64,000 nucleotides of DNA, taken from positions 1 to 64,000 of the forward strand of contig NZ_AP024882.1 in NCBI RefSeq assembly GCF_024347675.1. Direction: 5' to 3'. Below the pieces are notes generated by a model. It did no database searches and was not told the origin of the DNA. It saw nothing but the letters and a program-made list of their open reading frames with translations. Made by a program: the position numbers and the translations under genes. The stretch comes from Vibrio ishigakensis. GTDB taxonomy: Bacteria > Pseudomonadota > Gammaproteobacteria > Enterobacterales > Vibrionaceae. Shown in pieces: positions 4,462 to 21,343 of the stretch (positions are counted from its first letter, which is position 1; every line of letters begins with the position of its first letter).

Positions 4462-4505
4462 AAAAATCCCCAAGTGATTGAGCCATCACTTGGGGATTTT
4501 TCTTT
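4462..4505. terminator. Strong bidirectional terminator
   Basis: A long stem AAAAATCCCCAAGTGAT / ATCACTTGGGGATTTTT with loop TGAGCC lies between two converging genes. It has a T run on the plus side and the A run needed for the minus side, so it can serve both the gene at 3884 and the HEAT/TPR gene ending at 4505. Confidence 0.92.
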
Positions 4506-5470
4506 TATAAAGCGCGGGTCTTAAGCTCTTTGGTGACATGGGGCGGCGCTACCCGCTCTAGTTTAGCGATGCACTGCTTCGAGTCTGGATGATAGTGACG
4601 TAACTTAAAGTCACACACCGCATACAAGTGCTCTGGTCTTGCCGAAATCTGATAAGAACGCTGTAGAGACTTCAATGCCAAATTTTCATCGATAGGCTCT
4701 TGCAAAATACCGTTTAGATACCAGTAGTAACTGTTATCTACGGCTTTCTCCGCTGCCTTGTTCATACTATCCGCGGCCATGGTCTTATCATTCAATCGCA
4801 CCTGAACCATAGCTTTGGCATACAAGAGTTCAGGTTGATCTGGCATGGTTTTGAGTGACTTATCCAAAATCGATAGTGACTTAACATCTTTCTTTATAAG
4901 TCGATTGTTCTCAACCAAACCTAGGATAGCATCAACATTGTTAGGGTCCTGCGACAAAGCGTATTTATACAGACTTCGAGACTCGTAGTAGAGCTCCACC
5001 TGCTGCTTCACCAAGGCCAAACGCATAATGCTATCTTGGTCGTTTTCTAGATTCATCGCCTCTATATAATCATCCAGAACCGGCCCAAAGGTTTGCTGCT
5101 GCATGGAGTTCATCTCTCGATAATCCACAGCTAGGTTCTCAACCACAGCGAGGCGAACATCCACCACCATGTCATTGAACAAAGGCTCAAGCAGGCGCCA
5201 TCTATGCTTAAAATCAAACGGAGCAGAAGCGTGAATTGCCGCCACTCGAACATGATAGTTTGTGTCTTTAAGGGCGCGCGCAAGTGAAATCAAACCATTT
5301 GTCGACGGATAGTTTGCTAACTGGTTAAGGGCATCCACACGCGCTTCCACCGGCTGGTTTTTATCCTGAGCAATATAAGCGAGTTGATCCACATTCGACA
5401 GAGGCGCAGCCTGAACCGCGCACGCCATCACAGCCCCTAAAATCAGGGCAATAATTCGAGAACACTTCAT
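4505..5470 (-). CDS. Exported HEAT/TPR-repeat protein, stand-alone relative of the octaheme cytochrome tail
   Basis: A 321-residue protein with a signal peptide (VQA-A near residue 21), HEAT-like helices around residues 30-110 and TPR-like helices around 150-290. Residues 85-321 are colinear with residues 509-752 of the octaheme cytochrome encoded at 19085-21343. FDFKHRWRLLEPLFND matches FEFSDRWQILEPLLSD, and both C-termini share an LYA-C...KCL/QCIA-LE-APP pattern. It has no heme motif of its own. Its ATG overlaps the stop of the radical SAM gene by one base (TAATG), so the two are translationally coupled. A scaffold role in the periplasm, perhaps binding the same partner as the cytochrome, is inference. 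Confidence 0.85.
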   Translation of the reverse strand: MKCSRIIALILGAVMACAVQAAPLSNVDQLAYIAQDKNQPVEARVDALNQLANYPSTNGLISLARALKDTNYHVRVAAIHASAPFDFKHRWRLLEPLFNDMVVDVRLAVVENLAVDYREMNSMQQQTFGPVLDDYIEAMNLENDQDSIMRLALVKQQVELYYESRSLYKYALSQDPNNVDAILGLVENNRLIKKDVKSLSILDKSLKTMPDQPELLYAKAMVQVRLNDKTMAADSMNKAAEKAVDNSYYWYLNGILQEPIDENLALKSLQRSYQISARPEHLYAVCDFKLRHYHPDSKQCIAKLERVAPPHVTKELKTRAL

Positions 5471-6801
5471 TAGAACTTCGCTCCAAAGCTGTTGCTTGGA
5501 TTCTGCTGCTGCATCGCTTGGCGCACTACCGCATCGCTAAACTTACCGTGTGCGACTGGGTAGCCCATCAGACGAAGCAAATGCGCAATAGAGCGATCCG
5601 CATGACGATAGAACTTGTGCCAACCTGCACACAAGTAGTTCAAACCTGGTTCGCCATCCTTAGTGCGAATAAAGCGATTCTTTGGACACTCACCGTGGCA
5701 AGCAAACTTATAGTCACACTTCTGGCACTGCTCGGTCAGGGTGCGAGTTTTCGCAAAGCCAAACTCTTGCTGCTCGGCAGAATACGCCATCTCATCTAAT
5801 GGGCGCTCATGCACATTACCCAGTTTGTATTCTGGATATACATAGTGGTCACAAGAGAACACATCTCCAGTTGGCTCCATAGCCAGTCCTTTACCGCAGA
5901 ACTCGCCTAGGGTACACAGTGGGTTTCGACGTCCCATCCAGGTTTCAATAAAGGCTTCGAAGTATTGCACGAAGACCTTTCCTACATCGCGAGATGCCCA
6001 CTCATCGAATACTGCAATGAGGAAGTTACCCCAAGCCTCATCGGTCACACACCATGACTCCATCACTGAGTTTTTGCTACCTGGAATCAGTCGCTTGTCG
6101 CCTTGCTTAGGTTGCTGATCGGCAGGCCAATGTTGAGGCGCGGTGTCGCGAAAACTCTTTGGCTCTACAATCGGGATAAACTGCATCTGAGGAGAGCGCA
6201 CCTCATCACGTAGGAAACGATAGATCTCCAATGGCGCACGACTAGTCAGATTGTTGATACAAGTAAGAGTGGCAAATTTCACCTCGTACTTATGCAGAAG
6301 TTCAACCGCATTCATCACCTGCTTAAAGGTGCCTCGACCCGCCTTATTGGTACGATACGCATCGTGGTACATCTGAGGGCCATCGATACTAAGGCCAACC
6401 AAGAAGTTATGTTGAGATAGGAACTGGCACCACTTGTCGTTAAGTAACGTACCATTGGTTTGAAGATCGTTAGCAATAGTGACGCCTTGTGGGCGATATT
6501 TCTCTTGCAGTTCGACAACGCGCTCAAAAAACTCCAAGCCCAACAGCGTTGGCTCACCCCCCTGCCACGAGAAGATGATCTCAGGAGTGTTTTGGCCTTC
6601 AATATACTGCTTCACATAGCTTTCTAGATCCGCATCGCTGATCTGTGGAGAGCATCCCTTCTTGTATTCCAGTAAATCCTGTTTACTCAAGTAATAGCAA
6701 TAATCGCAGTCGATATTACAAACCGCACCGATAGGCTTTGCCATTACATGCATTCGTTTTGATGCACGACCCTGGTACTGAGGACCCTGAGTAATCAACA
6801 T
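5470..6801 (-). CDS. Anaerobic sulfatase-maturating enzyme-type radical SAM/SPASM protein
   Basis: A 443-residue radical SAM enzyme. The SAM-cluster motif CNIDCDYC is at residues 28-35, followed by SWQGGEPTLLG. C-terminal SPASM cysteines follow (CTLGEFCGKG, SCDHYVYPEYKLGN, CQKCDYKFACHGECPKNR), including the aspartate of the CDH segment that acts as base in anSMEs. The family oxidises a Cys or Ser in a CxPxR-like motif to formylglycine in the cytoplasm before sulfatase export. No protein in this window carries such a motif, so the substrate is absent or unconventional. It is translationally coupled to the HEAT/TPR gene and divergent from the FGE-like gene. Confidence 0.92.
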   Translation of the reverse strand: MLITQGPQYQGRASKRMHVMAKPIGAVCNIDCDYCYYLSKQDLLEYKKGCSPQISDADLESYVKQYIEGQNTPEIIFSWQGGEPTLLGLEFFERVVELQEKYRPQGVTIANDLQTNGTLLNDKWCQFLSQHNFLVGLSIDGPQMYHDAYRTNKAGRGTFKQVMNAVELLHKYEVKFATLTCINNLTSRAPLEIYRFLRDEVRSPQMQFIPIVEPKSFRDTAPQHWPADQQPKQGDKRLIPGSKNSVMESWCVTDEAWGNFLIAVFDEWASRDVGKVFVQYFEAFIETWMGRRNPLCTLGEFCGKGLAMEPTGDVFSCDHYVYPEYKLGNVHERPLDEMAYSAEQQEFGFAKTRTLTEQCQKCDYKFACHGECPKNRFIRTKDGEPGLNYLCAGWHKFYRHADRSIAHLLRLMGYPVAHGKFSDAVVRQAMQQQNPSNSFGAKF

Positions 6802-6843
6802 ATAAACACCTGCGAGGTTGTGAAAAACAGCATTATTATACGT

Positions 6844-6880
6844 GGTTATATATCAAGGAATCGTTATGCCTTGTATAACC
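6844..6880. promoter_or_regulatory. Imperfect inverted repeat in the radical SAM / FGE-like divergent promoter region
   Basis: The arms GGTTATATATCAAGG (6844-6858) and CCTTGTATAACC (6869-6880) are inverted with one 3-base bulge. A TATAAT hexamer for the minus strand lies just beside it (complement of 6835-6840). The position fits an operator controlling one or both divergent genes. Related GTTATA half-sites occur in other gaps of this block (19068-19082 and near 21370). Confidence 0.5.
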
Positions 6881-6937
6881 TTTAGTTATTCAGGATTTGG
6901 CTAAAATTGGCGCACTTTTAGTCAGTTTGAGGTCCTC

Positions 6938-7717
6938 ATGCGCCCTATCACTCGCCTAGCCTTTCCTTCTATTCTTATCGCTGCAAGCCTTGCTGGTTGT
7001 GCCTCTGCGCCGCAGCACCCTATCGCACAACTCATTGAAACCGATATGGTTTTAGTAGAAGGCGGAAGCTTCACCATGGGCTCTGATCTACCTGAAGCTG
7101 GGCCACAAGAAAAGCCAGCTCGCGAGGTCAGTGTAGATAGTTTCTACATCTCTAAGTTTGAGGTCACTCAAGAACTATTCGAGAGCGTTATGGGTCATTC
7201 CATGAGCTACTTTGCAGGACCAGACGTACCAGTAAACAACCTTAGCTGGCAGCAAGCTAATTACTTTATCGAAAAACTTAACGAACTGACGGGAGAGACC
7301 TACCGTTTGCCAACCGAGGCTGAATGGGAATTTGCGGCTAAGGGTGGCAACAAGAGCCAAGGCTTCAAATACAGTGGCTCAAACGATATCAACGAGGTGG
7401 CGTGGTATGAAAACAACGCCAACAACCGTGCTCACCCTGTAGGTAAGAAAAAGCCTAACGAGCTTGGCCTGTATGACATGACAGGTAACGTTGGTGAATT
7501 CACCATAGACGCATACGAAGAAACTTATTACCTGCATGCGCCTTCTCACAACCCTAGCAATGCGCAAGATTCAAAGGTCGGATTGGCGCATAAATCGGTT
7601 CGTGGTGGTAGCTACTCTTATGCCGATAATCAATCTGAAAACTACCGTCGAGACTTCGCTGCTCAACGTACCATAATGGCTGATATGGGACTACGCTTGG
7701 TACGTGATGCCGAATAA
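6938..7717 (+). CDS. FGE-sulfatase-fold lipoprotein without catalytic cysteines
   Basis: A 259-residue protein with lipobox LAGC (C21), so it is predicted to be a lipoprotein. The body is a full formylglycine-generating-enzyme fold: MVLVEGGSFTMGSD, RLPTEAEWEFAAKGG, GLYDMTGNVGEF and SVRGGSYSY. Active FGEs have two copper-binding cysteines in the stretch after RGGS; here that stretch (SYADNQSENYRRDF) has none, and the only cysteine in the protein is the lipid anchor. It is therefore probably a binding or structural member, not a formylglycine generator. It sits 24 bases upstream of the phosphatase gene in the same direction. Confidence 0.9.
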   Translation: MRPITRLAFPSILIAASLAGCASAPQHPIAQLIETDMVLVEGGSFTMGSDLPEAGPQEKPAREVSVDSFYISKFEVTQELFESVMGHSMSYFAGPDVPVNNLSWQQANYFIEKLNELTGETYRLPTEAEWEFAAKGGNKSQGFKYSGSNDINEVAWYENNANNRAHPVGKKKPNELGLYDMTGNVGEFTIDAYEETYYLHAPSHNPSNAQDSKVGLAHKSVRGGSYSYADNQSENYRRDFAAQRTIMADMGLRLVRDAE

Positions 7718-7741
7718 TTATACAAATAGGAACAAATACTT

Positions 7742-9445
7742 ATGAGAAAAAATGTTTCTTTATCACTAGTCGTGGCTGGGCTTTTATCATCATCAATGGT
7801 GACATTCCCTGCACTGGCTGAGGAAGCCAAGCAACCTAAACTTGTCCTGCAGATCACCGTGGATGGCTTACGTGGTGACCTGCTTGAGCGCTATAAGCAT
7901 AACTTTGGTGAGGGCGGCTTTCGCTACCTAATGGATGAGGGCACCTATTACACCAATGCTAACTATGAGCACGGTAATACCGAGACCATAGTGGGACACG
8001 TTTCACTTGCAACCGGTGCGCCACCAGCCGTGCACGGAATGGTTGGTAACGTTTGGTATGACCGAAGCCTTGAGCGCTTGGTGTATAACGTGGAAGACGG
8101 CAACTACAGTATGCTTACTAGCGGTGCTGGCGTTGACCAATCCACTGAGATAGACCCAACTCAGCGCACCGCAAAACAAGATGGTCGCTCTCCAAACCCT
8201 ATCCTAGTCTCTACCTTTAGTGATGAGTTAACCGTCTCAAACAGCGGGAAATCCAAGGTGTTTTCTGTATCGGTAAAAGACCGTGGTGCTATTTCACTTG
8301 CTGGTCACACAGGTAAAGCGTTTTGGTTTTCAAAGGCGACCTCTGAGTTTGTCACCAGTGATTATTACTATTCGGAATACCCAATCTGGGTAAACCGCTG
8401 GAATGAGAAGAAGATACCCGCTCGCTACTCAAAGCAGCGCTGGGATCTCTCGCTTCCTCGAGATCAATACACCTTGGAAGAGGTATCTCAGGATCAGAAG
8501 TTCGACCTAGCCGGTTTCCAACGCACCTTCCCACACCCTTATGGACCAGCAAGCTATCAATATTACTCGACTATGCTAACCGTTAGTCCCGCTGGTGACG
8601 AGATCACCGCCGATTTTGCCAGCATCTTGCTTCAGCAAGAGCAACTAGGTAAAGGGGAGGTTACGGATTATCTTGCGGTAAGCTTCTCGTCCAACGACTA
8701 CGTTCTTCACCTTTACGGCCCTTCGAGCCTAGAGGCGGAAGATAACTTGATTCGACTGGACCGAACCTTAGCCAAAATGTTTGAAGAGATCGAGCACCAT
8801 GTGGGTCTAGACAACACCTTGATAGTCCTCTCGGCAGACCATGGCGCGCCCGAAGCCTCACCAGTGGCGGCCTCTCTTGGCTTAAGACAAGCAGCCTATT
8901 TCCAGAAAGAAACCTTGATGACAGATGCTCTAGTGGCTCGTTTGAAGTCAGAGTTTGGTGTCGATGAAAAGATCATCCGTCTTTATGCTCAGCCATATGT
9001 CTATCTAAATCATGAGATGGTGAAGCAGAAGAAAATCGACCTAGCTAAGCTTCAAGACGTTATCGCTGAAGAGGTTACCAAGGTAAGTGGCGTGGCATAT
9101 GCGGTGACCAGTGAAGACATTAAGAATGGTCGCGTGCAACACAACCGAGTTAACGAATTGGTATCCAACAACTACCACCCGCAACGCTCTGGCGATGTGT
9201 ATCTGGTATTTGACCCACGCAGCTATATTAACGATATGGACGGTCTAACGGTCGCTTCGACACACGGCTCGCCGTGGCGCTACGATACTCATGTACCGGT
9301 TATCTTTGCAGGATATGACATTAAAGCTCAGACAGTGCATAGAGCAGTTACCCCGTATGACATTGCTCCTACCCTATCCAATAAACTTGGTATCACCCAA
9401 CCAAGTGGTGCCACAGGTAAGGTGTTGAAAGAGGTCGTAAACTAA
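7742..9445 (+). CDS. Exported PafA-like alkaline phosphatase (type I phosphodiesterase/NPP superfamily)
   Basis: A 567-residue protein with a signal peptide (ALA-E near residue 26). Metal ligands and nucleophile of the alkaline phosphatase superfamily are visible: VDGLRGD (D41), ETIVGH with T82 as nucleophile, SSNDYVLHLYGP, SADHGA and THGSPWRYDTH. The Thr nucleophile and the NDYVLH pattern fit PafA, a calcium-independent phosphomonoesterase of Bacteroidetes, rather than a sulfatase, which would have formylglycine there. The protein contains no cysteine, so it cannot be a Cys-type substrate of the neighbouring maturase. It probably releases phosphate from organic compounds in the periplasm. 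It likely forms an operon with the FGE-like lipoprotein and ends at a terminator. Confidence 0.88.
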   Translation: MRKNVSLSLVVAGLLSSSMVTFPALAEEAKQPKLVLQITVDGLRGDLLERYKHNFGEGGFRYLMDEGTYYTNANYEHGNTETIVGHVSLATGAPPAVHGMVGNVWYDRSLERLVYNVEDGNYSMLTSGAGVDQSTEIDPTQRTAKQDGRSPNPILVSTFSDELTVSNSGKSKVFSVSVKDRGAISLAGHTGKAFWFSKATSEFVTSDYYYSEYPIWVNRWNEKKIPARYSKQRWDLSLPRDQYTLEEVSQDQKFDLAGFQRTFPHPYGPASYQYYSTMLTVSPAGDEITADFASILLQQEQLGKGEVTDYLAVSFSSNDYVLHLYGPSSLEAEDNLIRLDRTLAKMFEEIEHHVGLDNTLIVLSADHGAPEASPVAASLGLRQAAYFQKETLMTDALVARLKSEFGVDEKIIRLYAQPYVYLNHEMVKQKKIDLAKLQDVIAEEVTKVSGVAYAVTSEDIKNGRVQHNRVNELVSNNYHPQRSGDVYLVFDPRSYINDMDGLTVASTHGSPWRYDTHVPVIFAGYDIKAQTVHRAVTPYDIAPTLSNKLGITQPSGATGKVLKEVVN

Positions 9446-9471
9446 CGCGACTCACAAACTTCACTCAGATC

Positions 9472-9498
9472 AAGCCGGCAACTTCGCCGGCTTTTTGT
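9472..9498 (+). terminator. Terminator after the PafA-like gene
   Basis: Stem AAGCCGGC / GCCGGCTT with a 6-base loop, followed by TTTGTT on the plus strand. Confidence 0.85.
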
Positions 9499-9509
9499 TA
9501 ACGGAAGAT

Positions 9510-11498
9510 TTAAGGGTTAATCTCGCCTGCTATCCTAACCTCTGAAACTCCCGACCAATCAGACCAAGCCATATCTTGGTTTCGTACTCTAGCTTTGAGA
9601 TACCAGACCTCACCGTCCTCGAACTGTAAGAAGTGTTCAGGAGCATTTGCTCGCCCTTTTAGCTTGTCGTAATCCGAAATATGGGTCACCTTCTCCAGTC
9701 GAATCTGACCTTCAGTAATATCCTCCAAGTCATGCTCTTCAGACCAAGCAACATGGTCATCCGTATAGATATGGTTCACCCACTTATAGGCCTCATCATT
9801 ACCCACGCGAAGAACACCCTCAAAGTTACTCAGGGTCACAGTAGTTATATCGGCTCCTTCTTGCGAATCTATGATTTGCCCCTCAACCCAAGTAGGGTCG
9901 ACTTCATCATCAGGCTGGTCTCCTTCAAGTGGATATGGAAGTAGGTTTTGCGAGCGCGTTTCATTCCCCCATAGATCAAAGACCTGTTCACGCTCCTCAT
10001 TGAATGTTCTCGACTTAGACAGTCTCCATTGAACTTCGTGAATAGAGTCAGGCTGTGAGTGTGATAGACCTATAGTGTCGCTTCCTGGTCGTACCGTGAT
10101 AGAAGGATCTAGCGTCGGGGATTCAATGATCGACTCAAAAGGAGCAAGTCTGACGACATCTGTGACTTCAAACACATTGTCTAGCTCAGCATACCCACCG
10201 GACTTAGAGATTACCGTACCAGAGTAACGTTGTGACTTTAGCGTGTCCGTACCGTCGACATTGAAAGTAAGGACGTTGAATCCGAACTCTGAACGAGACA
10301 CCTCTATAGTATTGTAGTCCTGAATATCATATAGGTGATGGGCATTATGCATTGGCTCCCGGTAGCCTTGGGAGGTAGAGCTGTTCATCCATAGATGAGG
10401 GGTATCCATAGATTGACCACGGGAGTACGCGTGGGTGTGCCCAAAAAAGTGACCTGAGATTTTACCTGTCGCCTTTGAGTAATTCTCTGTCTCAGCAACG
10501 ATTTCACACGAACCCAGTGACTCTCCAGTAATCCACATTTCAGATAGACAAGGGTGATGCATCATGGAGAACATATAGTCGATATTCTCATCACTCTCTG
10601 TTGCCGACCTCTCATTGCTCATCCAATGGATCTGTTGCTTAAGAACATCACGTTGAAAGTTAGAATGACTATGTGAAATCGGGAAGGAGTCCATACCAAA
10701 CATACGCAGGTTATTGATATCTATCGTATACCAAGTCTCATCATAAGAAGGGTCTCCATTTTTAGGAGTCTCGAAAAAGTGCTTGTACTTGGTTAGATGA
10801 GCATCCTTGGAATAATCATGGTTTCCTGGAACCGTAATTAATGGTACGTACGGCGTTATATTCTTCATCTGTTCGAAAAATTGATCCCGCCAATGCTCAA
10901 AATTATAACCATCGCTCACGATATCCCCGGCGATAGTAATAGCTGTCAGATTTTCCGCACACTGCTCTTTATCATTTTCACAGGCGTATTGAATAATCCC
11001 GCTATTAATTACATCTTCAAGAACACCAAGTGTATCGCCATTTTGTGTATCGCCGATTGCAATAATATTAAACGGCGACTTATCACCCTTTTCATTATAG
11101 GTTTTGAAGAAATACATCTCAGACACAGACTGTTCAGAGCCATTGTCACTAACAACATAGTATTCATACACTGTCTTAGGCTTTAAGCCTTGCAACGTCG
11201 CAGAACGTGTTTCTGAAATAGTAAGATCGATCAAGTCCGCTTCAACAACACTCCATGCGGAATGGGAGCCCTGCTCTCTTACCCATACCTGGGCGGAGTC
11301 CGCCGACGCTTCGAACCTAACTGTCATAGACGTAGGTTGAGGCATCTGAAGATAAGGATGGATCAGAAACTCAATATTGCTCCCTTCAGGAGCAGGATTA
11401 GGTTCACCACTGTGGGAGTCATTGGATGAATCATCGTTACATCCGGACAAAGCTACCAGTAGACCCGCTACGATAGCCGAATATTTTAAAGGCTTCAT
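9510..11498 (-). CDS. Calcineurin-like metallophosphoesterase lipoprotein with purple-acid-phosphatase-type N-domain
   Basis: I choose ATG 11498 (662 residues) because it puts the lipobox ALSGC near residue 20. A GTG at 11573 would add 25 residues ahead of the signal. After a short Asp/Ser linker comes a fibronectin-like domain (HPYLQMPQPTSMTVRFE) as in purple acid phosphatases. The metallophosphoesterase motifs follow in order: GDTQNGD, AGDIVSDG, GNHD, MMHHP and GHTH. A further beta-rich C-terminal region of about 250 residues is unassigned. It probably hydrolyses phosphate esters at the cell surface or in the periplasm. It converges on the PafA-like gene, so two unrelated phosphatases lie side by side. 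Confidence 0.88.
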   Translation of the reverse strand: MKPLKYSAIVAGLLVALSGCNDDSSNDSHSGEPNPAPEGSNIEFLIHPYLQMPQPTSMTVRFEASADSAQVWVREQGSHSAWSVVEADLIDLTISETRSATLQGLKPKTVYEYYVVSDNGSEQSVSEMYFFKTYNEKGDKSPFNIIAIGDTQNGDTLGVLEDVINSGIIQYACENDKEQCAENLTAITIAGDIVSDGYNFEHWRDQFFEQMKNITPYVPLITVPGNHDYSKDAHLTKYKHFFETPKNGDPSYDETWYTIDINNLRMFGMDSFPISHSHSNFQRDVLKQQIHWMSNERSATESDENIDYMFSMMHHPCLSEMWITGESLGSCEIVAETENYSKATGKISGHFFGHTHAYSRGQSMDTPHLWMNSSTSQGYREPMHNAHHLYDIQDYNTIEVSRSEFGFNVLTFNVDGTDTLKSQRYSGTVISKSGGYAELDNVFEVTDVVRLAPFESIIESPTLDPSITVRPGSDTIGLSHSQPDSIHEVQWRLSKSRTFNEEREQVFDLWGNETRSQNLLPYPLEGDQPDDEVDPTWVEGQIIDSQEGADITTVTLSNFEGVLRVGNDEAYKWVNHIYTDDHVAWSEEHDLEDITEGQIRLEKVTHISDYDKLKGRANAPEHFLQFEDGEVWYLKARVRNQDMAWSDWSGVSEVRIAGEINP

Positions 11499-11762
11499 TT
11501 CTTTTAATTTTCCATTAGGTTTGTATTTAGCTTTAAAAAAAGCATTAAGAAATGTAACCAGATGTTTTTTCACTTTAATTGCGCTTTTGTGTTAACTATT
11601 GGAAAAAGCAAAGTGAAATTATTGATGGAGCTTATAGGTTGGAGCTGCGAAAAAACAGAGTTAATTTAATTAAGAGAGCTAAAGTTTTTAAAATATATAA
11701 ATAGCCTTACAAAATATTACTAAGGCTATTAAACCAATTTAGTTCTATGAAAATATAAAAAT

Positions 11763-11782: not shown

Positions 11783-11802
11783 AAACATCTCTACATTCTG
11801 GT

Positions 11803-12708
11803 TTAAAGAAACACTGTCTTTGCCATGGCAGAGACCTGATTTCTTAGCCAGCGGTGACTGGCATCACTGGTTCGGCTAGGGTGCCATAACATGCAAAGAT
11901 CCTTTTCCACATCTAAGAAAGGTGCGTCTAGAGATTGCACAGGGTGGAAGTCAGCCATACTAGAGAACGTTGAAACTGGGAATAATGCCAAATAATCACT
12001 CTGACAGGTCGCAGCTAGTGCCTCTAAGACACCTGGTGCTCTATAAACGATCTTACGCTTGTTGAGGTAATCGTTGTTATCGCTCGACATCATGGTGCTA
12101 CGACTGCGCCATTGGGATACCGCAATATGTTCTTCGGCTAGGAACTGCTCAGGGGTTATCTCACCGCTCACCCTTGGGTGATCTTTACGTGCAATAACCA
12201 TTAAACGCTCTTTACCAATAACACTGGTTTGCAGTGTAGTGCGCCCTTTTGGCATCACATCGATTACCAAATCATAGCGCTGCAAACGCAAGTCCGACTC
12301 AAGGTCCTCGGTAAATAGTGGATGTACCTCAAGGTCGATGCCTGGGGCATTTGCCTTGATCTGATTAAGCACCTTTGGCATCAGCTCATAGCCAATAGGG
12401 GCTAAACAGGCGATGGAGAAGATGCGCTTTGACACCTTAGGGTCGAATGAGCGAGAAGCGCTCAGTGTTGACGAGAAGTTCTTAAACGCAGTGGAAAGCG
12501 CAGGGTATATGTCCCCAGCAAATGAGGTCGGTGTTACTCCAACAGGGCTGCGATGAAACAAAGGATCGTCATAGATCTCACGAAGGCGCTTAAGCGCCTT
12601 ACTCACCGCAGGTTGGCTTACACCCAGGCGCTGCGCCGCCTTGGACATGCTCTCTTCTTCATAGACAGCAACAAAAAATGGGATCAGGTTAAGTTCGGTA
12701 CTTTTCAT
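11803..12708 (-). CDS. LysR-family regulator at the end of the Bat operon
   Basis: 301 residues from ATG 12708; a GTG three codons earlier is possible. The N-terminal helix-turn-helix (SMSKAAQRLGVSQPAVSKALKRLRE) and the effector domain (about residues 90-300) are standard, and the form resembles the LeuO/NodD-like subgroup. The start lies inside the end of batD, an overlap of about 20 bases, so it is read as the last gene of the MoxR-Bat operon. Such placement suggests that it regulates this operon or the neighbouring phosphatase/maturase genes, but the target is not shown. Confidence 0.9.
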   Translation of the reverse strand: MKSTELNLIPFFVAVYEEESMSKAAQRLGVSQPAVSKALKRLREIYDDPLFHRSPVGVTPTSFAGDIYPALSTAFKNFSSTLSASRSFDPKVSKRIFSIACLAPIGYELMPKVLNQIKANAPGIDLEVHPLFTEDLESDLRLQRYDLVIDVMPKGRTTLQTSVIGKERLMVIARKDHPRVSGEITPEQFLAEEHIAVSQWRSRSTMMSSDNNDYLNKRKIVYRAPGVLEALAATCQSDYLALFPVSTFSSMADFHPVQSLDAPFLDVEKDLCMLWHPSRTSDASHRWLRNQVSAMAKTVFL

Positions 12709-13912: not shown

Positions 13913-15591
13913 TTGCCCTCCTCTGCTTGATATTGTGACTGACGGTATTGAAGCTGAAACTTGGCTCGAAGGAAAAGTTTAGGGTCGGCCTCAACACGCT
14001 TCAGCCACTTGGCCGCAAGCTCTTCACTCCCTAAGATCTCACGGGCATTCAAGGTCTCTTTTTGTAGCATCTCTTGCACTACGTCTTCCTCTGCGCCGTC
14101 GCCGGTTTGCGGTTTATCATCAGGAAGCTCAACCGAGTCCTCCGCGCCGTCTGTGGTTCCTTTCTGACTCTCACTGAGACGATTTACCTCATCTATGATG
14201 CCCTGAAGCACCTTAAGGTTATTTTCAGTGCGCTCCTGTAGTGTTTGATCCAACTCCTGCTCTAGCAACAGCTGATAGAGATTTCGAGCCTTGATGTATT
14301 CGCGCTGTCTAGCGAGAGAGTTAGCTGCATTGAACAGAGCCAGTGGCGAGTCGATGTTTACAAACTGAGCATGAGCGAGCTTGTATTCTCCGGCATAGTA
14401 GTAAGCAATACCGCGGTGCATAGGGTCCTGATAACGCTTGGCGGCTTCTAGATACTGCTGATTATCAAACAGGTACTGCCCTTGCTGATCTCGGGTAAAC
14501 CAAATATCTAGCCATGACTGCCATGCCCTATCCCAGTTAGAGACCTGCTCCAAAGGGGCTTCTTCTGCTACGCTCTTAACCGGCTGTGCCATCACTTGTT
14601 GGGGCATCACTGAACCAACCAGCACAGCACCGACTAAACACCATTGCACTAGCCAACCCTTGCGGAACCAAAGCAGCAATAAAACAGCAATTGGGAATAG
14701 GACGATATACCCCATATCCTGCCAAGGCATTACCGTATCGCCATTAATCTGCATATGGCGCTCAACCCAGGTGTTGATCTGATTGATGTCTTGGTTATCT
14801 ATGGTCACCAGCTGAACTCGCCCAGAAACCTCACTGGCTAACTGCTGTAGTGAATTCAGATCCAGCGGACTATTGGCATTAAATTCAGGATTACCCATGG
14901 CCAATATAAGAAGTTGATTGCTGCCCGAAGCAAAGTACTCACTCATCGCCTCTAGGCTCGACGGTGGCATCCCATCGGTGACCAATAGAACTGTGCTTGC
15001 CTCGCTACCTGATAGCTGTTCATCCAAAAGCTGAATAGCACTTTCTGGACGCTTGCCTTCCACGGGCATAACACCCGGCTCGATGGCATTCAAGAAAGGC
15101 ACAAATACTTGGCTGTCTTTGGTAAGAGGCATAGCAAGGTGTGATGAGCCCGCATAGGCAATCAGCGCGGTTTTACCGCCTTGTCGCAGACTGAGCAGGT
15201 CGCGGATCTTCTGTTTAGCACGGGCCAGTCTATCTGGCGCAACATCCTTTTCCAGCATGGAGCTATTGGCATCGAGCATCACAACCAAAGAGGCCTTGTC
15301 CTCACCAAACGGTGATGGAGCGCGCTGCCAAGTTGGACCTGCACACACCAAAATAGCCAAGCTAGTGACCACAACCAATACTTTCAGGGGCAATTGCTTG
15401 CGCCAGCCTTGATCTTCGATAGTGAGCGCTTTTTTAAGATGCTCCGGCAACTGGTTTTGCCAACCACCCTCAGAGTCATCTTTAAACCTTAGATAGATCA
15501 CCACAGCAAGCGGGACAAAAGCCATTAACCACAGAGGTCTTATGAAATGGAACTGGGTGAAGATCTGCTTCCACAGCATGGTATCAAGCAT
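13909..15591 (-). CDS. batB: BatB/BatC fusion: VWA domain protein with TPR tail
   Basis: 560 residues from ATG 15591, chosen because it follows GGGGAG and overlaps the batA end by 8 bases; an earlier in-frame ATG lies deep inside batA. Two N-terminal helices flank residues 20-90, then comes a von Willebrand A domain whose metal site reads DANSS (D107-S111), with Asn at the second position of the usual DxSxS. A further helix follows near 300. A periplasmic-side region with TPR helices (about 350-480) corresponds to BatC, and the C-terminus is acidic. It probably works with BatA and MoxR at the inner membrane. Confidence 0.88.
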   Translation of the reverse strand: MLDTMLWKQIFTQFHFIRPLWLMAFVPLAVVIYLRFKDDSEGGWQNQLPEHLKKALTIEDQGWRKQLPLKVLVVVTSLAILVCAGPTWQRAPSPFGEDKASLVVMLDANSSMLEKDVAPDRLARAKQKIRDLLSLRQGGKTALIAYAGSSHLAMPLTKDSQVFVPFLNAIEPGVMPVEGKRPESAIQLLDEQLSGSEASTVLLVTDGMPPSSLEAMSEYFASGSNQLLILAMGNPEFNANSPLDLNSLQQLASEVSGRVQLVTIDNQDINQINTWVERHMQINGDTVMPWQDMGYIVLFPIAVLLLLWFRKGWLVQWCLVGAVLVGSVMPQQVMAQPVKSVAEEAPLEQVSNWDRAWQSWLDIWFTRDQQGQYLFDNQQYLEAAKRYQDPMHRGIAYYYAGEYKLAHAQFVNIDSPLALFNAANSLARQREYIKARNLYQLLLEQELDQTLQERTENNLKVLQGIIDEVNRLSESQKGTTDGAEDSVELPDDKPQTGDGAEEDVVQEMLQKETLNAREILGSEELAAKWLKRVEADPKLFLRAKFQLQYRQSQYQAEEGK

Positions 15592-16591
15592 GATGCTTCT
15601 CCCCTTTTCTGCGTTTGATGGTGCTGACACTAAACGCCAGAATGTAGAGCACAACCACCAGCATTAGAGGATAGGCATGCACACTCTCCTTAATACGATA
15701 CTCAGTGCTTTCATACAGGCGTGGCTCTAGCTTGTTTATCTCCTCATAGGCTTTATCAAGCTCAGTTCTATCTAGGGCGTAGAAGGCATTGCCCCCCGTC
15801 TCTTCAGCCACACGATTGATAATGTTCATATCCAGAGCTTGCTCACCCACGGTTTGCGGGTCACCAATGGCTATCATATGAACCTTAACGCCTTTCACCG
15901 CTGCTACTTTAGCGGCGTCGATTGGCTCCACGAAACTGCCAGTATCGTTACCATCGGTCAGCACTATCGCCAGCTTCTCCCTATTCGGGTTTTGCGCTGT
16001 TTCATCGCTATGCTCAAACACCTTGATTGCAAGGCCGATAGCATCACCAAGGTGAGTGCTGGCGCCTGCCATAGCCACATCAGTTTGGTTCAAAAGCTCA
16101 AGCCAAACGCTTTGATCTGCGGTAAATGGGGTTTGTAGAAACGCAGCATCGCCAAACAGAATCAATCCAAGTCGATCCCCCTCACGGGCTTCGACGAACT
16201 CAGCTAGCACCTCTTTCACTGCCTCGATGCGCGACACCTTATCACCATCTGTAGAAGTGAAATCAGGTTCAGCCATAGAACCTGACAGGTCGACAACCAC
16301 CATGATGTCACGCCCCATCAGTTCGCGGGTTTGGGGCTCACCCAGCATCATTGGCTTACACATGGCAAATACTAACAAACACCAAGAAGCAATAAGGATA
16401 AGGCGTTGCCACCAGTTGGCCTTTAACTGGCTTGCACCCGAGGATGGAGTTTCTCCTAATATCTCAACCAGAATTTCAAAAAAAGGCACCTTTACTGCTG
16501 ATTGCTTGGTTCGATAGGCAGGAATAAGAAAATGAACCAACAGAGGCAGTGGTAGCAGCAGGAGCATCCACGGATAGGTTAATTCAAGCAT
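15584..16591 (-). CDS. batA: BatA-type VWA membrane protein
   Basis: 335 residues: an N-terminal double helix (residues 5-25 and 60-80), a von Willebrand A domain with an intact metal site DLSGS (D101, S103, S105) and LTDGNDTG, and a C-terminal helix near 310-325. BatA proteins sit in the inner membrane and are thought to be acted on by MoxR AAA+ ATPases through their VWA domain. The gene overlaps its upstream neighbour by 13 bases and its downstream neighbour by 8, so translation is coupled along the operon. Confidence 0.9.
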   Translation of the reverse strand: MLELTYPWMLLLLPLPLLVHFLIPAYRTKQSAVKVPFFEILVEILGETPSSGASQLKANWWQRLILIASWCLLVFAMCKPMMLGEPQTRELMGRDIMVVVDLSGSMAEPDFTSTDGDKVSRIEAVKEVLAEFVEAREGDRLGLILFGDAAFLQTPFTADQSVWLELLNQTDVAMAGASTHLGDAIGLAIKVFEHSDETAQNPNREKLAIVLTDGNDTGSFVEPIDAAKVAAVKGVKVHMIAIGDPQTVGEQALDMNIINRVAEETGGNAFYALDRTELDKAYEEINKLEPRLYESTEYRIKESVHAYPLMLVVVLYILAFSVSTIKRRKGEKHHA

Positions 16592-17097
16592 GGCTCACTC
16601 CTATGCTCAGAAAGCCAGCTTAAACAATCTTGAGTCAGCTCTGAAAGCTCAGCATCAGACAAGGAATACCCCTTTGATAGCAGCGCCTTAGACCATGCCT
16701 GCCACTTATTCTCAAACCGAAGGTTTTCTTTACTGAATAGATCCAACTGACTTAGGAAGGCGTCACCGATTAGCCTGTTAGAATCACTGGATAGATGTGA
16801 GGTGACGGCTTTCATCACCGTAAACAGGTCTTGGCCATAGTCAAAGCGCTCTTGGTCGGATAAGCCATGACTTAGGGACGCCCGCATATCAGAAACTATC
16901 GCAATCGCTTCGCCTCGATAGCGGTTTTCTCGCCACCGTTTGTTTAAGCGATATAGCCAGAATAGCAATGCAATTCCGGCAATCATACCCAGTACTTGCC
17001 AGCCTATTGTCTGCGGGAAATAGCTGATAGGTTCTGCCACCTGGACATCGCTAATATTTCGAAGAATGTAGGTACTTGGAGGCGTGTGTACAGTCAT
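16579..17097 (-). CDS. DUF4381 single-pass membrane protein
   Basis: 172 residues with one transmembrane helix (about 32-50, GWQVLGMIAGIALLFWLYRL) and a helical cytoplasmic domain. This matches DUF4381, a protein always found between the DUF58 and BatA genes in MoxR operons. It overlaps the DUF58 gene by 4 bases (ATGA) and batA by 13 bases. No enzymatic motif is seen; a bridging role between the VWA proteins is inference. Confidence 0.85.
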   Translation of the reverse strand: MTVHTPPSTYILRNISDVQVAEPISYFPQTIGWQVLGMIAGIALLFWLYRLNKRWRENRYRGEAIAIVSDMRASLSHGLSDQERFDYGQDLFTVMKAVTSHLSSDSNRLIGDAFLSQLDLFSKENLRFENKWQAWSKALLSKGYSLSDAELSELTQDCLSWLSEHRSEPCLN

Positions 17098-18011
17098 CGT
17101 CTTCCTCCCAAGGCACGCTTGTATTCTTGGATATGTTCACCACTGGTATCGAGCTGAACAAAGGGAAGATTCTTGATCGCCATAAGCCTAGTTAACTGCT
17201 CTTCACGCTTATTGTGGTGCGCTTCAAGACCAAGGTTTGCTTTAGCTATCTTGCTCTCTTCGGTAATTGAGAGTTGCAACTCGCCATCGCCCATCACCCA
17301 GTTACTACTTGGGATGGTCTTCTCCATTGGATCAGATACACGCACAGCCAGCAGATCGTTGTGGATCTGTAGCTGTTTCACTTTATCCAAGTCGGCTTCT
17401 TTGATGTCCAGCCAGTCGCTGATAATCACTATGGTGGTGTTCTTGCTTGCCATACGCTCAATGCTGGCCAGCCAATGGGACATGCTCACCTCTTCGCTAT
17501 CCATCGAACCGACAGATAGGCTGTGATTAGCTTGCTGGACGGACTTTAAAGCGTGCAGTAGATGACCTCGAGAGCGCTGCGACTTAAAGGCCTGAATGGA
17601 TTTCGACGAGCGTAAACTCACGCCAACTCGGTCGTTATCAGAAAGGATGCTCCACCCACTCAGAGCGGCAACCTCTGCGGCCACAACCGATTTCATAACC
17701 TGGTTTGAAGCAAAGAACATACTGGCACTTTGGTCGATGCAGAGAAGCACATTGCGGTCTTTCTCTTCGGTATAACTACGAACATGTGGTTTACCAGTAC
17801 GCAGGGTCACCTTCCAATCTAGGTTGCGAATATCATCGCCCTTTTGGTAATGACGTAGCTCTTCAAAGTTGAGTCCGCGCCCACGAAATAGGGATTGATG
17901 ACGACCAGAAAGTACAGTGTCTGATTTTAGTTGAGGCAAGAAAGAGAGCCCCACAGCCTGAGACTGCAAGGCAATCAATGCCTTGAAATCACAATAGATA
18001 CGGGAGTCCAT
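17094..18011 (-). CDS. DUF58 domain protein of the MoxR-Bat operon
   Basis: 305 residues with the DUF58 signature (RGRGLNFEELRHYQKGDDIRNLDWKVTLRTG at about 42-72, named here by its key RxGxxFxExRxYxxGDDxRxIDW pattern) and a degenerate VWA-like fold (DQSASM, IISDWLD). It is soluble. DUF58 proteins are regular partners of MoxR ATPases. It lies 4 bases after the MoxR stop and overlaps the DUF4381 gene. Confidence 0.9.
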   Translation of the reverse strand: MDSRIYCDFKALIALQSQAVGLSFLPQLKSDTVLSGRHQSLFRGRGLNFEELRHYQKGDDIRNLDWKVTLRTGKPHVRSYTEEKDRNVLLCIDQSASMFFASNQVMKSVVAAEVAALSGWSILSDNDRVGVSLRSSKSIQAFKSQRSRGHLLHALKSVQQANHSLSVGSMDSEEVSMSHWLASIERMASKNTTIVIISDWLDIKEADLDKVKQLQIHNDLLAVRVSDPMEKTIPSSNWVMGDGELQLSITEESKIAKANLGLEAHHNKREEQLTRLMAIKNLPFVQLDTSGEHIQEYKRALGGRR

Positions 18012-18015
18012 AGTT

Positions 18016-18999
18016 TTACCCGATCAATACATGATCAAGAAGCTCATCCACTACCTTGATAGCGTCGATACCATCAGCCAAAGCGTCGTAACTCAAGCTA
18101 TGACGATGAGATAGCACGCTATGGGCTACTGCGCGAACATCATCTGTCTCGACATAGCTACGACCTTTGAGCCACGCATAAGCACGGGCACACTTGTCTA
18201 AGGCAATGGTGGCACGCGGGCTAGCACCCACCGCAATCCAGCGAGAAAGGTTCGATTCGGGATAACGCTCAGGTCGACGAGTAGCCATAACTAAGTTAAC
18301 CATGTACTTCTCAACCAGCTCAGAAACCTCAACATTAGCAATCTCGGCTCGTGCCGCGATGATGGTGGCAGGATCGATAGCCAAGGCTTGTTGTTCTTCA
18401 CCACCGACCACTTCCTCGCCACGCACCAAGCGAATAATGGCAAGCTCAGCGTCGTCATCTGGATAATCGACGGTGACCTTCAAAATAAAGCGGTCCATCT
18501 GCGCTTCGGGCAGTGGGTAAGTACCTTCTTGCTCGATTGGGTTTTGGGTAGCAAGCACCATAAACAGTTCAGGAAGTTGATGGGTTTGATCACCCACGGT
18601 CACTGTGCCTTCTGCCATCGCTTCAAGCAGTGCTGCTTGAACCTTAGCTGGCGCACGGTTGATCTCATCGGCAAGCACTATGCTGTTAAAGATAGGACCC
18701 GGTTGAAAATGCAGGCTGGCTTTCTCCTGCTCAGAGGTTGCCTCTTGATAGACTTCAGTGCCGGTAACGTCAGAAGGAAGCAGGTCTGGCGTGAACTGAA
18801 CGCGACCGAATGAGGTATTGAGCGCATCTGCCAACGCTTTAACTGAACGGGTTTTCGCCGTACCCGGCAAACCCTCTAGAAGTACATGACCATTAGTTAA
18901 TAGGCCAAGCACTAGAGCCTCTACAACATGCTGCTGTCCAACAACAGAGCGTTCTACTCGTTCAATCAACTGGTTTACTGCGTTTTGAGTGTCACTCAT
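18016..18999 (-). CDS. MoxR-family AAA+ ATPase
   Basis: 327 residues. Walker A is GLPGTAKT (43-50), Walker B is LADEINRAPAKVQAALLEAM (about 110-130), and the sensor segment ATQNPIEQEGTYPLPEAQMD is characteristic of MoxR. These cytoplasmic ATPases remodel VWA-domain partners. It is the first gene of the DUF58-DUF4381-BatA-BatB/C-BatD-LysR run and lies 85 bases downstream of the octaheme cytochrome gene in the same direction. That gap contains an ATAACC-AAT-GGTTAT inverted repeat. Confidence 0.93.
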   Translation of the reverse strand: MSDTQNAVNQLIERVERSVVGQQHVVEALVLGLLTNGHVLLEGLPGTAKTRSVKALADALNTSFGRVQFTPDLLPSDVTGTEVYQEATSEQEKASLHFQPGPIFNSIVLADEINRAPAKVQAALLEAMAEGTVTVGDQTHQLPELFMVLATQNPIEQEGTYPLPEAQMDRFILKVTVDYPDDDAELAIIRLVRGEEVVGGEEQQALAIDPATIIAARAEIANVEVSELVEKYMVNLVMATRRPERYPESNLSRWIAVGASPRATIALDKCARAYAWLKGRSYVETDDVRAVAHSVLSHRHSLSYDALADGIDAIKVVDELLDHVLIG

Positions 19000-19067
19000 T
19001 GGTTCTTCCTCACGTTATCCTTGCCTCGAAACCACCTCGAGGACGCTCAATTTTAACCGACACCGCC

Positions 19068-19082
19068 ATAACCAATGGTTAT
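19068..19082. promoter_or_regulatory. Perfect inverted repeat ATAACC-AAT-GGTTAT between cytochrome and MoxR genes
   Basis: A 6+3+6 perfect palindrome just downstream of the cytochrome stop and about 70 bases upstream of the MoxR start. It resembles the GGTTATA arms at 6844-6880, so a regulator common to the block is possible. No terminator is visible in this gap. Confidence 0.4.
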
Positions 19083-19084
19083 AA

Positions 19085-21343
19085 CTAACGTAGCAATTGG
19101 TTGCGAAGCGGCGCAATAATGTTAGGTGGCGCATACTTTTCTAATTCAGTAAGGCATTTCCTCGCTTCAAACTCAGCGCTCATCTTGTCACTGTACTTCA
19201 CCAACATCTCACAGCGCGCATAGAGCTGCTGCGGGTTACCACTGATTCGAAACGCCCTATCTAGCGCATCGCTCGCTTTAGAAAGGTCCACATTCTCAAG
19301 CGCCAGACCATAGAGGAACCAATACTGGCTATTTTCTGGTTCAGCTACTGTAGATAGCCTCAGCATCTCTAGCGCTTGGGGCTGTTTGTCTTGTCTAAGC
19401 AGTGATAAGGCGGCGCTGTATCTCAAGCCGCCTGACTTAGGCTGAGCGGCAATGCCCTGCTCTAGAGTCTGAAACGCTTTAGATTCATCACCCTGCTCTC
19501 GATACAGGTCGGCTAAATTGACATAGCTATTAGCGAAGATAGGCTCTACTCGTATCGCTCCCTGATAGGCCTGTATTGCTTTATCTACCTCACCTTGAGC
19601 TCGATACACATTCCCTAAATTGGTACGACCGAAACCTCGGTCAGAGTTAAACTTTTGGATCTGGATATATTCATTTAAAGCCGGAGTCAGCGCTTCTTTC
19701 TGTGGCAGACTCATCTGTTTCCAACTTGCTACCAAGGCACCTGCGGCCTCCGTTCTGACCGCCAATACTGGATCTGAAAGAAGTGGTTCAAGGATTTGCC
19801 ACCTGTCACTGAATTCAAATCCTTGTGATCCCTCAATTGCACCAAGACGGATAAGCTCACTGTCATGTTTTACTGCACGAGCCAATGCTACCGTGGTGTT
19901 CTTGCCTGAATACGGCGACATACGAGACAAGGCTGAAGCGCGAATAATATCGCTCTGCTTGGCATCTTGTGCGGTAAGTGACAGAGCATCTTCTGCTCCG
20001 CGATGCCCGATATCCGCAGCATAAAAAGCGATAGCAAAGTGGCGTTCTTTATATCGAGGTGAATCTGGGAACCAGGCTCTCACTTGCTGCGCAGCCCATT
20101 GATTGGTTTGATCGGTATGGCAGTCGGTGCACACATTAGGGGTTCCCAAATGCTCACTTAGGTCTGGCCTTGGGATCTGCCAGCTATGATCGCGTCTTGG
20201 GTCAACCTGCATATAGGTGGTTTCTGGCATATGGCAGGTGACACACTGTGATCCCTCACTGTCGGCTTTGTGAAAGGTGTGTTTCTCTGGACTGAACTCG
20301 GTTGGAATATGGCACTGAGCGCACACCGCCTCCTGAGGAATGGCTAGCTTAGAGGTGTGAGGGTCATGGCAATTTGTACAACTGACTCCTTTCGCGGCCA
20401 TTTTTGACTGCAAGTAAGAGCCATACACATAATCCTCATCAAAGATCTGTCCGTCATGGTGATAAAGCTCAGGAGTGATTAAACTCAGACGATATTTATC
20501 CAGAAAACCGGTTTTGACATGATCGCCCTGTTCCGTGAGTTGTGTTCTGCGACTGTGGCACTGAGCGCACACCTGCATCTGGTCGGTGTTATGTTTAGCT
20601 TGGGGCTGAAAGGTTGATTTGCCCTCCTGCATCACCCACTGCTTGACCGCTTTAGACAGGTCTCTATCAAAACCCGCATGCGCAATGCTCGGCGGACTTT
20701 CTTTCTTCGCCCAATCCAAATGTTCACTGGCCGGGCCATGACACGCCTCACAGCCAACATTTACCTCAGACCAGGTGGTTTGATACTTGTCAGCCTTGGC
20801 ATCATAGTTTTTTGCGAGATTAGTCGAGTGGCAATCGGCACACATGAAATTCCAGTTCTGCCCGGCGTTGGTCCAGTAGAACTCATCGTGCTTATCTAAA
20901 TCAGGGTAGAGATGAAACCAGCGCTGACCCCCATCGGATTTATCCCGTGAATCCCAAGCAAAAGGAATAAGCTGTACCCTGCCATCATCAAATTCCACCA
21001 TGTATTGCTGCAATGGATAATGGCCAAAGGTGTAGCTGATCTTGTAGTCACGGTATTGGTCGTCCGGCCCTTGGATATTGACCCAGAACTCGTCTCCCTT
21101 TTTGAAAAAGCGGTTTTGATCGCCTTCAAACTCAAAAGTCGCACTGTCAAAATCACCCAATACTGAATCGGTCGAGGCATGCAACATGGCACGTTCATGG
21201 TCAGAGCCTTGCCACGCTTGATACTCTTCTTGGTGACAGGTTATACAGGTCTCGCTACCCACATACTCTTTTGCTGAGCTGGAAAGGCTCAATGATGACA
21301 GAAACAGCCCAATAACCAGTGTAATAACCTTGCCTACTTCCAT
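19085..21343 (-). CDS. Exported octaheme cytochrome c with HEAT and TPR tail
   Basis: 752 residues with a signal peptide (SSA-K near residue 24). Eight CXXCH heme-binding motifs are visible in the first half: CITCH, CADCH, CEACH, CAQCH, CTNCH, CAQCH, CVTCH and CTDCH. The arrangement recalls cytochrome c554-like multiheme proteins. From about residue 450 HEAT-like helices follow, then at least three TPR units (about 565-720). Residues 509-752 are colinear with the stand-alone HEAT/TPR protein at 4505-5470. It probably carries electrons in the periplasm, docked to a partner through the repeat tail. Donor and acceptor are unknown. It may be the first gene of the MoxR-Bat transcript. Confidence 0.92.
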   Translation of the reverse strand: MEVGKVITLVIGLFLSSLSLSSSAKEYVGSETCITCHQEEYQAWQGSDHERAMLHASTDSVLGDFDSATFEFEGDQNRFFKKGDEFWVNIQGPDDQYRDYKISYTFGHYPLQQYMVEFDDGRVQLIPFAWDSRDKSDGGQRWFHLYPDLDKHDEFYWTNAGQNWNFMCADCHSTNLAKNYDAKADKYQTTWSEVNVGCEACHGPASEHLDWAKKESPPSIAHAGFDRDLSKAVKQWVMQEGKSTFQPQAKHNTDQMQVCAQCHSRRTQLTEQGDHVKTGFLDKYRLSLITPELYHHDGQIFDEDYVYGSYLQSKMAAKGVSCTNCHDPHTSKLAIPQEAVCAQCHIPTEFSPEKHTFHKADSEGSQCVTCHMPETTYMQVDPRRDHSWQIPRPDLSEHLGTPNVCTDCHTDQTNQWAAQQVRAWFPDSPRYKERHFAIAFYAADIGHRGAEDALSLTAQDAKQSDIIRASALSRMSPYSGKNTTVALARAVKHDSELIRLGAIEGSQGFEFSDRWQILEPLLSDPVLAVRTEAAGALVASWKQMSLPQKEALTPALNEYIQIQKFNSDRGFGRTNLGNVYRAQGEVDKAIQAYQGAIRVEPIFANSYVNLADLYREQGDESKAFQTLEQGIAAQPKSGGLRYSAALSLLRQDKQPQALEMLRLSTVAEPENSQYWFLYGLALENVDLSKASDALDRAFRISGNPQQLYARCEMLVKYSDKMSAEFEARKCLTELEKYAPPNIIAPLRNQLLR

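Follow-up and report, generated by a model that had tools for sequence, protein, structure and literature searches.

The 64-kb window analyzed here, meaning the whole stretch of DNA under study, opens contig C2 (1.82 Mb) of the two-contig, 4.79-Mb genome of Vibrio ishigakensis. It carries a gene block that includes an octaheme c-type cytochrome with a HEAT/TPR tail (hereafter, OCT), a MoxR-Bat operon, a stand-alone HEAT/TPR protein (HT), and an anaerobic sulfatase maturase (anSME). The genes for OCT, MoxR, DUF58, DUF4381, BatA, BatB, BatD, and LysR form a minus-strand run with intergenic gaps of 85 bases or less. To the left of this run, anSME and HT lie on the minus strand, with a single base common to the HT start and the anSME stop (TAATG), and genes for an FGE-fold lipoprotein and a PafA-like phosphatase diverge from them on the plus strand. 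Every gene was found where an earlier note on this DNA had placed it.

19085..21343, minus strand: OCT, octaheme c-type cytochrome with HEAT/TPR tail, 752 amino acids (Pfam Cytochrome_C554 and TPR)
20069..21262, minus strand: OCT heme domain, residues 28-425, trimmed from the alignment
19091..19990, minus strand: OCT HEAT/TPR tail, residues 452-751, paralogue of HT by BLASTP
18016..18999, minus strand: MoxR AAA+ ATPase, 85 bases after OCT (PF07726; Walker A GLPGTAKT)
17094..18011, minus strand: DUF58 protein with DxSxS (PF01882)
16579..17097, minus strand: DUF4381 protein, one hydrophobic segment (PF14316)
15584..16591, minus strand: BatA, VWA protein with DxSxS, three hydrophobic segments (PF00092)
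13909..15654, minus strand: BatB, VWA protein, MIDAS stretch DANSS (PF13519)
12689..13912, minus strand: BatD (PF13584)
11803..12717, minus strand: LysR regulator, closing the OCT-MoxR-Bat run (PF00126/PF03466)
9510..11573, minus strand: purple-acid-phosphatase-like metallophosphoesterase, a bystander (PF00149)
7742..9445, plus strand: PafA-like alkaline phosphatase (NF042991, 461 bits, cut-off 650)
6938..7717, plus strand: FGE-fold lipoprotein, GldK/PorK-like, without catalytic cysteines (PF03781, 2e-45)
5470..6801, minus strand: anSME, radical SAM/SPASM anaerobic sulfatase maturase (TIGR03942)
4505..5470, minus strand: HT, stand-alone HEAT/TPR protein, 321 amino acids (TPR_19 above the Pfam cut-off, HEAT below)

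HT and the tail of OCT are colinear paralogues, as the earlier note had claimed: BLASTP aligned HT residues 28-321 with OCT residues 452-751 at 27% identity over 300 amino acids with 2% gaps (E = 5e-39), and the tail limits given in the note (509-752) prove about 57 residues short on the N-terminal side. When OCT was searched against the whole genome, HT was its sole strong second match (4.3e-36), the next being a TPR match at 5e-4; homology of the two HEAT/TPR parts is borne out by BLASTP, by a tail tree, and by this genome search, which was run with OCT as the query. The midpoint-rooted tree comprised 60 tails, including 13 of the 20 HT copies at hand. These 13 formed one group (support 99) and three copies of HT2, which is likewise a tail standing alone, formed another (100), the two joining (95) inside a 36-row group (97) that also held the tails of Vibrionaceae, Shewanella, Colwellia, and their kin. 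The remaining 24 OCT tails fell outside this group, among them those of L056 and L058, of the same genus and order (L- and G-numbers are working labels for loci and genomes of the comparison sets). In the simplest reading, HT would derive from an OCT whose heme domain was lost; because the tree is rooted at its midpoint, we infer this direction of change. A C-terminal cysteine pair occurs in HT (19/19), HT2 (3/3), and named OCTs (75/78) and in 0/21 OCTs of a wider class sample, and therefore marks the linked group only; as a general OCT trait it was ruled out. N-terminal hydrophobic stretches, which in OCT amount to one segment by hydropathy, indicate that HT and OCT are probably exported. A profile search for HT, length-limited and with 7999 candidates scored, returned 52 proteins, and those with organism names were all from Vibrio or Aliivibrio and were called TPR, HEAT, or hypothetical proteins, with one called LapB.

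The heme domain of OCT contains exactly eight CxxCH motifs (at 33, 168, 198, 259, 322, 341, 367, and 405). Six further histidines (49, 208, 329, 355, 358, and 386) and two methionines (Met 53 and Met 315) were invariant in 43/43 OCT sequences; because just six histidines are invariant beyond the eight of the CxxCH motifs, up to two hemes may be without a distal histidine. Compared with PDB sequences, the heme-domain profile gave 12 matches at E 0.1, all of them distant, including c554 (4e-4), NrfA (0.01-0.06), 6i5b, and 6qvm; no chain named HAO or tetrathionate reductase was among these 12 in a comparison by sequence profiles only. The best 120 database matches of OCT bore general names only (multiheme, deca-heme, CXXCH, or c-552/4 cytochrome, TPR protein, hypothetical), and its closest named relatives were from Vibrio breoganii, V. 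comitans, V. inusitatus, and V. superstes (68-69%).

In relatives, the gene of about 520 amino acids that adjoins OCT encodes an S1 sulfatase (PF00884 at 1e-53 and 1e-54 for the genes of L040 and L069). Among 80 named OCT loci, 53 of them from Vibrionaceae, the gene immediately upstream of OCT, on its strand, encoded a sulfatase in 60 (an intervening FGE gene being allowed), and a sulfatase lay anywhere in the OCT flank in 65. MoxR was the next gene downstream of OCT in 57/80, sulfatase and MoxR were both in the flank in 57/80, and MoxR was in view together with BatA, BatB, and BatD in 55/80. Several Colwellia loci read sulfatase-(sulfatase)-FGE-OCT-MoxR-DUF58-DUF4381-BatA-BatB-BatD, all on one strand. 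The flank seen in the squid symbiont Aliivibrio fischeri (L143) holds sulfatases, OCT, the genes from MoxR through BatD, LysR, PafA, and a portion of FGE. The linked sulfatases are diverse, with 27-99% identity to the reference sulfatases, and the best solved match of an OCT-linked sulfatase was 7aj0 (E = 4e-61), which a passage in PMC8484680 describes as the fucoidan sulfatase PsFucS1. V. ishigakensis itself has a sulfatase pair at C2:128254-131633, 107 kb from OCT, which is divergent as in relatives; its members are 84% and 59% identical to the query sulfatase and both carry CTAGR (L082). The window holds, at the place where relatives carry the OCT-upstream sulfatase, an amino-acid ABC transporter set (21894-25281; named from reading the open reading frames, ORFs) that was probably inserted or rearranged. 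A third V. ishigakensis sulfatase (L083, 6121-8323; 75% to SULF.f) stands beside a 185-amino-acid protein resembling p182, a component of anSME-p182-HT2-MoxR-Bat clusters that had no Pfam match.

Co-occurrence was counted across 61 genomes, accepting OCT matches at E < 1e-140 and tail matches at E < 1e-27; weaker TPR matches were excluded, as was a broken copy containing a stop (G022 C1:1920066). These counts and the Fisher tests ignore kinship, and 23 of the 24 genomes with OCT or HT belong to one genus. A sulfatase (E 1e-140) was present in 23 of these 24 genomes, the exception being the 150-contig draft G001, and in 0/37 others; BatA (E 1e-60) was present in 24/24 and in 1/37 others (G015). 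The maturase was less specific (1e-120), occurring in 26 genomes, three of them outside the OCT/HT set, and lacking in G014. OCT lay within 1 kb of a sulfatase in 17/22 copies and within 3 kb of BatA in 16/22, HT lay within 1 kb of anSME in 23/23 copies, and BatA lay within 12 kb of a sulfatase in 27/35. The stable pairs in these genomes are HT-anSME and OCT-sulfatase. The bracketing of the block by OCT and HT did not hold up as a fixed geometry: the two were approximately 11-25 kb apart for 13/22 OCT copies and lay on separate contigs in, for example, G008 and G036. The genes nevertheless keep company in relatives, in the 80 named loci and the 61 genomes alike, and were not scattered over unrelated contexts, the outcome that the earlier note had named beforehand as refuting its proposal.

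Searches of the class and of the phylum at E 1e-60, counting V. ishigakensis, found OCT homologues in 29/369 and 35/398 genomes, respectively. The phylum search yielded 40 OCT-level places, 32 of them outside the genus, of which 21 were examined (20 loci, plus G767 C56 by coordinates); a sulfatase-domain ORF was near OCT in 13 of the 20 loci. Outside the genus, a sulfatase lay within 10 kb of OCT in 14/21 loci, compared with 0.64 expected from each genome's own PF00884 count (3-12), with P = 2.5e-17 when loci are treated as independent, some genomes and families contributing several loci. At least one such case was found in 9/10 families of other Pseudomonadota. In this sample, L319 has MoxR-Bat adjoining OCT, L320 has one sulfatase between the two, and in L332 a few genes separate them.

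Formylglycine is made from cysteine by FGE and from serine or cysteine by anSME, according to a passage in PMC3920027. The sulfatases linked to OCT are mainly of the cysteine type: among 120 strong sulfatase ORFs of the named loci, 114 carried CTAGR, three STAGR, and three neither motif. Counting identical proteins once and leaving out one motif-less ORF, 131/135 sulfatases within two genes of OCT were of the cysteine type. The four serine-type ones belong to a LysR-sulfatase-anSME cassette that forms an insertion separating OCT from MoxR, and another four (L255, L258, L259, and L261) lay next to MoxR and without OCT, an anSME or anSME-like gene being in the locus. The anSME-like genes of L255, L258, and L259 are so called from their 40-41% identity to the window anSME. 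MoxR-Bat goes with both sulfatase types and OCT mainly with the cysteine type, a weak contrast that was not significant (Fisher p 0.08), serine-type sulfatases being rare (8/174). After residue 30, a single cysteine was found in all SULF.a (52/52) and SULF.b (51/51) proteins of the named loci and in 6/7 of SULF.f, while SULF.c had one in five and none in two and SULF.d two in its only protein (1/1); the sulfatases of loci outside the genus had a single cysteine in 11/20.

The sulfatase-maturase-type enzyme of the earlier note is well founded: anSME scores 485 bits with TIGR03942 against a cut-off of 349 and has CxxxCxxC (CNIDCDYC) at 28 and a SPASM domain (PF13186). Enzymes of this kind act on the sulfatase in the cytosol, before export, and anSME is predicted to make formylglycine in the linked sulfatase. 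To our knowledge, a tie between an anSME gene and a probably exported HEAT/TPR protein is not familiar from described anSMEs. The hallmark of FGE is a catalytic cysteine pair. In the FGE-fold lipoprotein the sole cysteine is C21 of a lipobox-like LAGC, which speaks against an active FGE and rules the protein out as a second maturase; its best NCBIfam model was GldK (105 bits, cut-off 350). Unlike those of Vibrionaceae, eight Colwellia FGE-fold proteins (L202, L203, L206, L211, L214, L217, L218, and L220) have CxxC and one more cysteine at matching places. Only one of the two phosphatases that the earlier note counted in the block stays with it: the PafA-like protein, so called because it falls below the NF042991 cut-off, recurs in relatives, whereas the metallophosphatase had no tblastn match in the 278 relative loci (0/278) and was ruled out as a member of the system.

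The MoxR-Bat operon is complete, as described before, with MoxR, DUF58, two VWA proteins, and BatD in one run. BatA has DLSGS, DUF58 has DQSAS, and MoxR has its Walker A motif, while BatB departs from the pattern; by hydropathy only, BatA and BatB have membrane segments and MoxR and DUF58 have none. The annotated BatB start is a TTG at 15654, overlapping BatA by 71 bases, and an internal ATG is the likelier true start. LysR directly follows BatD in 35 of the 41 named Vibrionaceae loci with the next gene in view. As a control, we examined the 20 best-scoring background Bat loci of other families, minus G084, G070, and G126, which are no more than 4 kb from the start of their contigs; a sulfatase-domain ORF was near 0/20, four of these loci being shorter than 16 kb and the ORF picker recognizing no Bat gene in L313 and only some in L310 and L315. 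The sulfatase tie is therefore not a general Bat trait.

Sulfatase and MoxR-Bat also pair without OCT, as sulfatase-anSME-p182-HT2-MoxR-Bat in L066-L068 (the sulfatase in view only in L067 and L068) and as a serine-type sulfatase beside MoxR-Bat in L255, L258, L259, and L261. In L255, L258, and L259, a STAGR sulfatase directly precedes a distinct MoxR-Bat operon with the anSME-like gene upstream, and L255 has, by eye, a response regulator and a sensor. An unrooted BatA tree of 66 rows placed sulfatase-linked Bats in separate groups: the Vibrionaceae OCT/HT-linked Bats, the HT2-linked ones (99), three beside serine-type sulfatases (100), and the OCT-linked Bats of Colwellia and kin, which joined three Bats without a sulfatase (95). 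The tree omits 27 randomly chosen OCT-linked rows of L142-L199 as well as L056, and its row for L199 carries a no-sulfatase label although sulfatase, OCT, and anSME occur elsewhere in its locus. Because the sulfatase-linked Bats fall in several groups, repeated recruitment is hinted at, and the sulfatase-Bat tie may have arisen more than once, possibly with gene transfer.

We tentatively propose, as the likeliest account though one that still falls somewhat short of probable, that these genes encode a dedicated system for exported formylglycine sulfatases in which MoxR-Bat is the ATP-driven machine and OCT and HT are periplasmic adaptors. The paralogy, the kept linkage, the co-occurrence, and the sulfatase type are observed; export of the proteins, their binding, any chaperone role, and the redox steps are all inferred. 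The maturase would generate formylglycine from the sulfatase's catalytic cysteine or serine ahead of export; the sulfatase would then be exported and held in the periplasm by the HEAT/TPR solenoids of OCT and HT; and membrane-bound MoxR-Bat, composed of MoxR and DUF58 without membrane segments, the membrane VWA proteins BatA and BatB, and BatD, would spend ATP on completing the folding, metal loading, or delivery of the sulfatase. The FGE-fold lipoprotein could be an outer-membrane partner. The octaheme part may link the finishing step to the respiratory chain and act on or protect the active-site cysteine or formylglycine: in a sulfatase with only one cysteine, disulfides cannot be the redox target, and therefore the catalytic residue would be the obvious redox site. 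The parts of this proposal differ in strength. That the genes form a conserved sulfatase-linked system is very probable, that MoxR-Bat serves the sulfatases is somewhat more likely than not, and that the hemes act on the sulfatase is doubtful. The earlier note's idea that surface enzymes are matured or quality-checked, Bat/MoxR being the assembly machine, is partly supported, a candidate client having been found in the sulfatases beside OCT.

Several observations weigh against this proposal. Neither sulfatase nor MoxR was nearby in 12/80 named OCT loci, and a kinship-corrected paired test of sulfatase adjacency and MoxR adjacency together, which skipped 14 truncated loci, was not significant, MoxR differing in 1/10 pairs. 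The maturase was found in 0/17 sampled OCT genomes of other families by a search (TIGR03942, 1e-60) that matches in E. coli, although it is present in G045 and in Shewanella and Alginatibacterium loci; anSME is therefore a regional partner of the system and not part of its core. PafA-like phosphatases without a formylglycine motif are also in the cluster, the one at 7742..9445 having no C/S-x-P/A-x-R motif. A second Bat operon in V. ishigakensis (C1:1371908; BatA 46%) had no sulfatase in the surrounding 20 kb (L254). In the class sample, the weaker result, a sulfatase was near OCT in 5/27 loci, which include the tail-only contig L141, several contigs below 13 kb, and many broken drafts. These loci, and other neighbors elsewhere (sulfotransferase, PEP mutase, TPP enzyme), rule out OCT as a constant sulfatase neighbor. 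In L119 (7489-10895), the OCT ORF overlaps the end of a sulfotransferase ORF, and in L126 (9064-15420), phosphonate-type genes lie upstream of OCT, those for PEP mutase and TPP enzyme being assigned by Pfam and an aminotransferase-like one by eye.

The alternative that survives best, possible though on balance unlikely, is a co-regulated catabolic neighborhood in which LysR would switch on sulfatases, the PafA-like phosphatase, and a respiratory octaheme cytochrome for sulfated algal matter, with Bat serving envelope stress and no physical dependence among the products. It would account for LysR at the operon end and for a fucoidan sulfatase as the closest solved relative, and a passage in PMC3557215 ties Bat originally to oxidative stress. 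The constant tie of the heme-less solenoid HT to anSME fits maturation better, and the sulfatases are paired with different Bat groups. It is decidedly unlikely that OCT is itself an enzyme that oxidizes or reduces a compound released by the sulfatase, such as a phenol or quinol freed from a sulfate ester. Up to two hemes may lack a far-side histidine, which would suit such a role, as would an OCT-sulfatase pairing that extends more widely than the OCT-Bat pairing, but in HT and HT2 the tail persists by itself beside anSME or MoxR, and because the linked sulfatases diverge so greatly, one shared product is unlikely.

A more speculative possibility, which we regard as a long shot, is that OCT is an oxygen-independent periplasmic redox activator that would hold a cysteine-type sulfatase by its tail and oxidize the catalytic cysteine to formylglycine or repair it; that OCT would thereby be a missing route of sulfatase maturation such as mutants of E. 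coli have suggested is equally improbable. Hints in this direction are the predominance of the cysteine type near OCT, the 17/17 genomes without anSME, and the single cysteine of SULF.a and SULF.b. The rarity of serine-type sulfatases and the single cysteine in just 11 of the 20 sulfatases outside the genus count against it, as do the possibility that the 17 genomes hold an FGE and the expectation of the cysteine type wherever anSME is lacking. Already disfavored, and very improbable, is the view that the genes are an ancient block spread by inheritance and transfer, without any functional link: the preponderance of Vibrionaceae among the named loci and the kinship-corrected test would allow it, but the sulfatase is retained despite broken OCT linkage in V. 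ishigakensis, G021, and G035, the pairing far exceeds expectation outside the genus and recurs across families, and several Bat groups are involved.

A sulfatase-OCT-MoxR-Bat system was not described in the literature titles and abstracts searched, subscription journals being mostly outside the search; a passage in PMC7159879 that mentions a sulfatase concerns an FGE-like domain. The function of Bat "remains elusive" in the conclusion of a 2012 paper (PMC3557215), and the association of a Bat operon with a single class of enzymes provides a testable candidate client for it. Similarly, OCT is a multiheme cytochrome with only general names that stands beside sulfatases in most of the sampled families of other Pseudomonadota. 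The sulfatase maturation machinery of E. coli is called elusive in a passage of PMC6189696, which cites a 2007 paper on a third sulfatase maturation system. According to a passage in PMC8484680, sulfatases take part in the degradation of sulfated algal polysaccharides, and work on these enzymes is limited by how little formylglycine is formed in E. coli; a missing sulfatase helper would therefore matter in practice.

The components resemble known systems and depart from them in specific ways. HAO, octaheme tetrathionate reductase, c554, and NrfA are multiheme c cytochromes like OCT, which has eight c hemes and differs from all four in its HEAT/TPR tail. The lipoprotein has the FGE fold (PF03781) in common with GldK/PorK and with FGE, and unlike FGE it lacks the catalytic cysteine pair. 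PsFucS1 is an S1 sulfatase like the OCT-linked ones, a likeness at the family level. Described MoxR-Bat (Bacteroides aerotolerance) operons have the same genes in the same order, MoxR-DUF58-DUF4381-BatA-BatB-BatD, and the operon here is sulfatase- and OCT-linked, unlike all 20 background operons. In the client systems NorQ-NorD, CbbQ-CbbO, and RavA-ViaA, an AAA+ MoxR protein and a MIDAS VWA protein are encoded near the genes of the client enzyme. The system proposed here would differ in having an exported sulfatase as its client and in serving it across the inner membrane, helped by heme and solenoid adaptors.

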